DNA from: an uncultured Caryophanales bacterium
GTDB lineage: Bacteria; Bacillota_I; Bacilli_A; RF39; UBA660
Direction: 5' to 3'
Length of the DNA: 36,724 nucleotides
NCBI GenBank assembly: GCA_946408655.1
Contig: CAMJTE010000006.1
Coordinates: 1-36,724, forward strand
Shown here: piece after piece, positions 13,516-24,156 of the stretch
Layout of the letters: every line of letters begins with the position of its first letter
Position numbering within the stretch: position 1 is the first letter of the stretch
Notes under the pieces: model-generated
Told to the model about the DNA's origin: nothing
The model's database searches: none
The model's input: the letters and a program-made list of their open reading frames with translations, nothing else
Position numbers and translations under genes: made by a program

Positions 13516-13581
13516 CACACACACCTACCTTCAATCTAATTATAACAAATTTCGACAAATAAATAAAGTAGTTCATGAAAA

Positions 13582-13604
13582 AAATAGGTATATTAAATAC
13601 CTAT
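13582..13604 (-). terminator. Intrinsic terminator of the type III toxin gene
   Basis: Minus strand aataggtat-ttaat-atacctatt followed by TTTTTTC. Confidence 0.75.
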
Positions 13605-14084
13605 TAGTTCTTTATCAATACTTAGTTCTTCTAGCATCATTTGCTTTATTTTATCAATATCCGGAAAGAATAAATTAATACCTTTTTTCTTTAAATTCAT
13701 CATTTCTTTAAAACTATTTAAAATTTTCTTTTGAATATACTCAGCAACTTTTGCTGGAATTCCATTAAAAACATGGACATGGTCTATATATTTTTCTAAC
13801 GTTGGAAATGCATTTTGAAGCAATATCGCATGTTCTCTTTCTAAAAACTTATCAATTAGTATTATATTACAAAAACCATACTTTTTTATTTTACTATCAA
13901 TGTTCTTCTTATATTTATCAACATTAGAACTTATTGGAATAAACCATAATATATCTTTATCTTTTATAGTAAAATATGTTGGACGTTTTTTACCACGTTC
14001 ATGATTAGTCATCAAATTATCATCATTAACAATATCAAAGAAACTATCTTTTATATGATACAGATATCCAGTTTTTACCTTCAT
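13593..14084 (-). CDS. cptN: Type III toxin-antitoxin endoribonuclease, ToxN/AbiQ superfamily (CptN-like)
   Basis: GYLYHIKDSFFD...RPTYFTIKDKDILWFIPISSNVDKYKK...AILLQNAFPTLEKYIDHVHVFNGIPA; preceded by terminator and tandem repeats as in ToxIN loci. Confidence 0.88.
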   Translation of the reverse strand: MKVKTGYLYHIKDSFFDIVNDDNLMTNHERGKKRPTYFTIKDKDILWFIPISSNVDKYKKNIDSKIKKYGFCNIILIDKFLEREHAILLQNAFPTLEKYIDHVHVFNGIPAKVAEYIQKKILNSFKEMMNLKKKGINLFFPDIDKIKQMMLEELSIDKELIGI

Positions 14085-14108
14085 TACAACACCTCTTAAG
14101 ATACAAAA

Positions 14109-14134
14109 GGAAACTTTAAATTAATAAAGCTTCC
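14109..14134 (-). terminator. Intrinsic terminator between the antitoxin repeats and toxin gene
   Basis: Minus strand GGAAGCUUUA-UUAAUU-UAAAGUUUCC (10 bp with one G-U) followed by UUUUGU. Confidence 0.85.
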
Positions 14135-14145
14135 AAATTTACCAG

Positions 14146-14237
14146 CAGGATTATTTATTACTCGCACCACCTGTAAGCGAGAAACATTGACTAACAGGAT
14201 TATTTATTACTCGCACCACCTGTAAGCGAGAAACATT
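14146..14237 (-). ncRNA. cptI: Type III antitoxin RNA: two perfect 43-nt repeats, 49-nt period (CptI-like)
   Basis: Identical copies at 14146-14188 and 14195-14237. Each RNA repeat has stem CUCGC/GCGAG, and loop ACAGG can pair with downstream CCUGU or CCUG, an H-type pseudoknot. Confidence 0.88.
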
Positions 14238-14261
14238 TACATTAATAATTAATGCAATTAA

Positions 14262-14290
14262 AGTATACTACTTTTTTTAAATAGTGTCAA
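14262..14290 (-). promoter_or_regulatory. Promoter of the antitoxin RNA
   Basis: TTGACA (14285-14290), 17-nt spacer, TATACT (14262-14267). Confidence 0.85.
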
Positions 14291-14311: not shown

Positions 14312-14695
14312 TCAAGTTATAATTAAACTTTTTTCTTTTAATCTATTGATTTTGCTTTGATTTACGGGATAAAAGGTAGCAAGATAATTATCTCCACTAT
14401 GTTTTAATTTTAATTTAACTACAATACAAATTTCATCTTTAAATTTACCAAAATATAACAAAGATTTTCTTTTCTTATCAAAATACACAAACAAAAGTTT
14501 TTTAATGATTTTATTAATATTAGACATTGCATAATTATAACTATCAATTGATGTAAACTCAGATATATGTTTATAAGTATGTTTATATAATCCACCAGAT
14601 TGAATAATTATTTGATTTTCATACTCTTGTAAATCATATTTCCTAGCAATTTTCCTACTAATTCTTCCAACAACTTTATTAAATTTCTTTTTCAA
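14312..14695 (-). CDS. Small nuclease-like protein, putative PBECR/BECR-fold toxin
   Basis: TTG start with SD-like agggga; GRISRKIARKYDL...GLYKHTYKHISEF...DEICIVVKLKLK...ATFYPVNQSKI resembles PBECR-type proteins; homology not searched. Confidence 0.5.
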   Translation of the reverse strand: MKKKFNKVVGRISRKIARKYDLQEYENQIIIQSGGLYKHTYKHISEFTSIDSYNYAMSNINKIIKKLLFVYFDKKRKSLLYFGKFKDEICIVVKLKLKHSGDNYLATFYPVNQSKINRLKEKSLIIT

Positions 14696-22903: not shown

Positions 22904-23149
22904 CTATTTTGCTACACTATCTATTTCTTGTAATTCAAATCTATACTTTTGTTCTACATTTGGATATTTCTTATGATCTACTTCACTTAGAAACATATCA
23001 AGTGGTCTAATCCAAAGACTATAATCACCATATAATCTTCTATAAACAACATACTTTTCCTTTGTTTCAGAGTGATTTGCAACATCAACAACTAAATAAC
23101 AGTCGCCTTTAAAGTGTTTATAAACTCTATTTATCTCAATTTCTCTCAT
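22904..23149 (-). CDS. DUF1653-like protein
   Basis: [50 protein letters not shown]. Confidence 0.85.
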
Positions 23150-24156
23150 AACTCCTCCTCAATATCAATATGTAATTCGATATCTTCTTTAGTTGGTAAT
23201 TCTTTTAATAAATCAGTAGATAGTTTATCAAATATCTTATATTCACTTACACCAACTGGTTTATTTATATATTTAAGAGTATAATCAACTATTTTATCAC
23301 TTTTATCTTGACATAATATAATACCAATAGATGGATTATCATTACCATCTTTAACCTCTTCATCAAGTGCAGTAAGATAAAAAGCCATCTTACTTGCAAA
23401 TTCTGGCTTAAATTCTACGACTTTAAGCTCTACTGCTATATAACACTTTAATTTCACATGATAGAAAAGTAAATCAATATAAAAGTCATGATTATCAACA
23501 GTAATTTTATACTAGTTACCAACAAACGAAAAGCCAGTGCCCAATTCTAATAAAACATTCTTAAGTCTATCTAACATTTTATTTTCTAATTCTTTTTCTT
23601 TATAATCATTATTTAATTCAATCAAATCAAATACATATGAATCTTTCATTAGGTTGTCCGCTAAATCGCTATTTTGTTTTAAAGTAATTTCAAAATTATT
23701 ATGTTTAATACTCTTTACTTGCCTTGTATATAGATCTGTATCTATTTGATATATCAGAATACTTTTTGACCATCCCTCTATAATACACCTTTCCATATAC
23801 CATTTACGAATTTTAAAATCTTTTACCTTTTCAATAAGTTTTAGGTTATGTTTCCATGGTATTTTTGCACCTAGGTGCAAAAATTCATCTTTATCCTTAT
23901 ATTCTTCATAAAAAGCCTTCATATAATTTAAATTTCTTGCAGAAAAACCTTTTAAACTAGGAAAAGAAATTTTTAATTCTAAAGCAAGAGTATCTACAAA
24001 CTTATTTCCCCATTTAAAATTATCAGATATAGTTTTACCAATGTTATAATATAAATGAATTAATTTTGCATTAGCATCAGCCATTATATCTAATTGAGTC
24101 TTACTAACCATATTTTTAATATTATCTGTTATCTCTTTAATTGAATTATCTAGCAT
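23146..24156 (-). pseudogene. DUF1016/YhcG-type PDDEXK nuclease interrupted by one in-frame TAG
   Basis: ORFs 23512-24156 and 23146-23457 are in the same frame, separated by TAG (23512-23514) and 18 sense codons YKITVDNHDFYIDLLFYH. Confidence 0.85.

Follow-up and report, generated by a model that had tools for sequence, protein, structure and literature searches.

Introduction

The described system closest to the locus reported here is CptIN of E. rectale, a type III toxin-antitoxin system with a known toxin structure (PDB 4RMO). The E. rectale toxin CptN cuts after A45 (GA↓AAGUUU, the arrow marking the cut), the scissile adenine being specified by Ser85 and Asp81, and its antitoxin RNA, CptI_Er, derives from two repeats and requires A29 and the kink nucleotide U30 for antitoxicity (PMC4627078). 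Co-evolution of the enzyme with its RNA substrate was proposed in the same study, on the basis of structural comparison and the absence of cross-protection (PMC4627078). ToxIN, known from P. atrosepticum, B. thuringiensis and E. coli, and AbiQ share the type III layout and a MazF-like endoribonuclease fold; ToxN_Ec cleaves GAAAU after the A (PMC8860590, PMC5086642). TenpIN, the third type III family, has the same genetic layout, and the type II toxins MazF/Kid and CcdB, which are paired with protein antitoxins, have a distantly related fold. Here we describe a CptIN locus in a stretch of 36,724 nucleotides (the window) from an uncultured Caryophanales bacterium, and a coupling in its family between one toxin residue and one nucleotide of the antitoxin RNA.

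Organisation of the Locus

The CptIN locus lies on the minus strand throughout, in the interval given correctly, without a strand, by the preliminary description. The promoter, the two repeats, the 10-bp hairpin, the open reading frame and the final hairpin were all found as described there (Table 1). The promoter-like site ranked first among 22 such sites in 2 kb and is unchanged in the sister genome G002. The repeats are spaced at 49 nt, the longest exact run common to both being 43 nt; S1 pairs CUCGC with GCGAG, and S2 pairs ACAGG with CCUGU in repeat 1 and CAGG with CCUG in repeat 2. A ribosome-binding-like sequence, AAGAGGTG, lies between the 10-bp hairpin and the toxin reading frame. The toxin carries R34, S52, S53, N54 (usually K/R) and H85 (usually S/A). 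The window also carries chromosomal housekeeping genes, and the upstream neighbour of the locus (14312-14695) matches PBECR3, a phage nuclease family of the Barnase/EndoU/ColicinE5/RelE-like kind (Pfam E 5e-10).

Table 1. Parts of the CptIN locus, in coordinates of the window.
Feature	Position	Strand	Remark
Promoter-like site TTGACA-17-TATACT	14262..14290 (TTGACA 14290-14285, TATACT 14267-14262)	-	11/12 consensus match
CptI repeat 1, predicted 49-nt processed unit	14190..14238	-	unit ends placed by homology with the GA↓AAGUUU cut of E. rectale (PMC4627078)
Repeat 1 elements	S1 14230-14226/14214-14210, S2 14223-14219/14198-14194, A-rich L2 14209-14199	-	
CptI repeat 2, predicted 49-nt processed unit	14141..14189	-	
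Repeat 2 elements	S1 14181-14177/14165-14161, S2 14174-14170/14149-14145 (one mismatch), L2 14160-14150	-	
Predicted scissile U, junction 1, GU↓AAAUGUUU	14239	-	by homology
Predicted scissile U, junction 2, GU↓CAAUGUUU	14190	-	inferred
Predicted scissile U, junction 3, GU↓AAAUUUGG	14141	-	covaries with toxin residue 85
Attenuating terminator hairpin, 10 bp, in the antitoxin/toxin gap	14109..14134	-	-11.9 kcal/mol, z -4.37 (predicted); weak U-run
cptN toxin gene, 163 aa	13593..14084	-	NF047359; 4RMO by sequence and fold
Terminal hairpin, 9 bp, with U7, at the toxin 3' end	13578..13605	-	-9.6 kcal/mol, z -3.66

The Toxin Is a Member of the CptIN Family

The family search that the preliminary description had proposed as a check placed the toxin in the CptIN family (NCBIfam NF047359, an equivalog) with 150.4 bits against a cutoff of 90. 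Its similarity to E. rectale CptN was significant by sequence (E 2e-18) and by a profile of 48 rows (E 7e-30). An AlphaFold2 model built from the toxin alignment (pLDDT 91, pTM 0.86) had 4RMO as its sole PDB match at E <0.001, with TM-scores of 0.80 and 0.84, followed by MazF, CcdB and ToxN_Bt. No entry of Pfam or PADLOC matched the toxin. Rfam yielded nothing at the gathering threshold and only chance matches below it. A ToxN/AbiQ-family toxin was ruled out by the lack of a Pfam or PADLOC match and by the structural comparison, in which CptN was the best match and ToxN_Bt far weaker. Although the ToxN structure 4ato was among the structural matches, ToxIN and AbiQ differ from the window locus in having a toxin of another family by sequence, 34-36-nt repeats and a heterohexameric complex. 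The toxin likewise showed no match to TenpIN, its NCBIfam match being CptIN, and no protein antitoxin of the kind that accompanies MazF/Kid and CcdB was seen adjoining it.

In comparison with E. rectale CptIN, the window locus has a homologous toxin (about 30% identity), two tandem repeats upstream, a hairpin 5' of the toxin, an apparent H-type pseudoknot with an A-rich L2 containing AUAAAU, and the conserved Ser-Ser and R30/R34 residues. It differs in its units of 49 nt (45 nt in E. rectale), its L1 of about 2 nt (1 nt) and its GU↓ junction (GA↓), and its toxin has His85 for Ser85, His104 for Tyr104 and Asn54 for Arg53. By the features tested, apart from Asn54 in the active site, the window locus is a member of CptIN. 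The earlier assignment to a CptIN-like type III system is thus borne out by the matches to NF047359 and 4RMO, the layout and the covariation of S2.

Relatives and Antitoxin RNA

Relatives of the toxin are encoded at 185 loci in species genomes, 80 of which were retrieved; further relatives came from whole-genome searches: of 386 genomes belonging to the order, 115 were positive. In the resulting comparison set of 150 distinct toxins, about 130 showed the order of two repeats, hairpin and toxin, and the recurrence of this order and of the S2 pairing was far beyond chance. Where the upstream sequence was long enough, nearly all relatives showed a pair of repeats of 49-51 nt followed by the hairpin and the toxin, and E. 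rectale CptI likewise derives from two (PMC4627078); two repeats are therefore the family norm, and the suggestion that "only two" is a peculiarity was rejected. Some loci depart from the usual arrangement. Three (L002, L037 and L045) have a tandem pair of complete CptIN modules that are separated by about 850 bp and differ in their antitoxin stems. In two (L069 and L076) the usual pair of repeats is preceded, at a distance of about 200 nt, by extra CptI repeats, across a gap too short for a toxin gene. In same-class genomes, L234, L235 and L236 are open frames of about 275 aa that lack upstream repeats and resemble CptN weakly over part of their length.

An alignment of 84 distinct repeat cores showed S2 to be paired in 94.0% of cells, as compared with a mean of 78.0% and a maximum of 81.0% in 1000 shuffles, and with at most 64% when slid. 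The S2 pairs vary on both sides (GC/AT, CG/TA), and the outer pairs of S1 co-vary as well (CT/AG, TT/AA, TC/GA). L2 is near-constant among relatives, UAAUAAAUNAU, and has AUAAAU in common with CptI_Er. Minimum free energy folding of the repeats gave S1 only, or pairing between repeats, single-strand folding being unable to show a pseudoknot. Taken together, the covariation of S2 among relatives supports the pseudoknot claimed in the preliminary description, and the repeat RNA appears to form an H-type pseudoknot with an A-rich L2.

Coupling of Residue 85 with the Junction Nucleotide

Most relatives have the junction GA↓CAAUG or GA↓AAAUG. The window has GU↓ at all three junctions, and its toxin has His85. 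In the raw table of 3' junctions, Ser, Ala, Thr or Val85 occurred with A in 115 of 118 cases, and His, Gln, Asn or Glu85 with U or C in 22 of 23 (Fisher p 2e-21 for residue 85 against the junction-3 nucleotide). With three misparsed loci dropped (L049, L199 and L217) and the window added, the table had 140 rows, in which Ser/Ala/Thr/Val85 went with A and His/Gln/Asn85 with U at the predicted cut; residue 85 and junction 3 agreed in 138 of them, the exceptions being L124_63 (Val/U) and L200 (Ser/U). The 5' junction of repeat 1 discriminates less between the toxin classes. One RNA sub-class has NGAAAUG as its inter-repeat junction alongside either toxin class, so that the coupling there rests on the 3' junction.

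Outside the main set, distant loci carry Arg or Lys85 together with C (L229/L230, L241, L244 and L271); L229/L230 have Arg85 and GC junctions. L233 (Ser/A) fits the coupling, and L228 (Ser85, U) is contrary to it. Read by eye, the plasmid loci of Megamonas and Oscillibacter (both Arg) and of Planococcus (Lys) have C at the corresponding place. These data suggest that residue 85 in the CptN pocket probably acts as a base selector, with Ser, Ala, Thr or Val selecting A, His, Gln or Asn selecting U, and Arg or Lys selecting C, and that the two traits have switched jointly at least about 10 times. Since the window locus combines His85 with U, its toxin should cut after U.

Alternative Explanations

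Shared ancestry, with no mechanical link between the two traits, could in principle produce such an association, as toxin and RNA are inherited together and many branches of the tree are weakly supported. When column 85 was left out of tree building, the two traits changed 12 times each and the joint state 13 times, and 11 of 12 switches of residue 85 and the junction nucleotide coincided. The Pagel test gave a likelihood ratio of 61.9 (p about 1e-12), and the FastTree tree gave 61.7 and a similar joint count. Whereas column 85 shared 11 changes with the junction nucleotide, the next-best toxin column shared 5, and among 59 RNA positions the two junction nucleotides carried 0.574 and 0.314 bits about residue 85, with at most 0.083 bits at the others, so that the positions flanking the junction show no association. 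Branch support was modest, the starred branches leaving 4 independent pairs, of which 3 agree and 0 oppose. In the closest cross-class pair, 88% identical, both traits differ (L209 Ser/A, L211 Asn/U). Moreover, residue 85 is a known contact of the scissile base (PMC4627078), and the distant plasmid loci follow the same trend. We therefore regard ancestry alone as very improbable, and prefer residue 85 as the selector of the base.

Concerning the window locus itself, the earlier description of it as complete holds for its anatomy; the toxicity of its CptN is made uncertain by Asn54 and by the broken toxin of the sister genome. Residue 54 directly follows the active-site serines and is Lys in 144 and Arg in 2 of 150 relatives. 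Rao et al. describe an active-site triad [Ser]-[Ser/Thr]-[Arg], the Arg of which we infer to be R53 of E. rectale CptN, the residue at the position of window Asn54; Lys55Ala abolishes toxicity in ToxN_Ec (PMC8860590), although the equivalence of Lys55 to window position 54 is not certain. In G002, whose alaS is 98% and whose CptIN locus is 99% identical, the locus (L144, G002:C8:34500-37800) has a 202-bp toxin deletion corresponding to window 13828-14029, with a 7 bp end overlap, which frameshifts the toxin after residue 18 and leaves the promoter and both repeats unchanged. A third CptN copy in the window's own genome (L087, G000:C40, ~270-735) is frameshifted and has a single degenerate repeat. 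These findings would fit a decaying remnant in which the toxin is attenuated and the array alone still works, perhaps as a guard against other copies of CptN. We nevertheless consider this unlikely, as the window reading frame is full length with R34, S52 and S53 intact, His85 still fits all three junctions, and residue 54 departs from K/R in other toxins too (Asn in the intact loci L002 and L168, Gln in L192). Protection of other copies is further disfavoured by the second intact CptIN of the same genome, on contig 26, whose array differs in stem and loop and has GA junctions, and by the lack of CptI cross-protection between known members (PMC4627078). As to the role of the locus, the preliminary description had inferred a dedicated abortive-infection module against phage. 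Phage defence by the window locus is possible, by analogy with the ToxIN and TenpIN relatives that provide it (PMC5086642, PMC4627078), and the window holds the PADLOC candidate families PDC-S01, S02, S04 and S05. However, such a role is not to be presumed for CptIN: in E. coli, CptIN_Er stopped none of more than 200 coliphages and stabilised a plasmid instead (PMC4627078), and the neighbours of 81 loci included no conserved defence gene; a dedicated defence module is thus doubtful. We prefer to describe the locus, with a probability of roughly 90%, as a CptIN type III toxin-antitoxin module on the chromosome, belonging to a His85/GU↓ sub-class.

Proposed Function and Genomic Context

In the module as we envisage it, one promoter would transcribe the two CptI repeats, most transcripts ending at the hairpin and the remainder reading through into cptN. 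CptN, a predicted endoribonuclease of the Kid/MazF fold, would release 49-nt H-type pseudoknots by cutting the precursor at its junctions, after which two toxins and two RNAs would close into an inactive heterotetramer, as known from E. rectale. A falling RNA supply would leave free CptN to cut cellular RNA. With His at residue 85 in the scissile-base pocket and GU↓ junctions, the cut would fall after U, as opposed to A in E. rectale.

The kind of locus is ordinary; what is new here is the predicted specificity class, together with the link between residue 85 and the junction nucleotide. Neither this coupling nor a U-cutting type III toxin was found in the literature searched, which lacked most subscription journals. 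The coupling reduces the co-evolution proposed for E. rectale CptIN to a single residue and a single nucleotide that have switched repeatedly in nature, so that exchanging one of them becomes a test of specificity change and of orthogonality in type III systems. A further prediction from it concerns the RNAs, cellular or phage, that are open to cutting by such toxins.

No conserved third gene was found among the neighbours of the 81 loci (L001-L081). The commonest neighbour, at 29 of them, resembles pyruvate phosphate dikinase; CptIN lies directly downstream of this gene, at a recurrent chromosomal site. The phage collection contained no phage-borne CptN, and one IMG/VR contig carries a CptN relative (L081). 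Within the window, a YhcG/DUF1016 gene (PDC-S02) occupies two frames, at 23146-23457 and 23512-24156, and is apparently broken.
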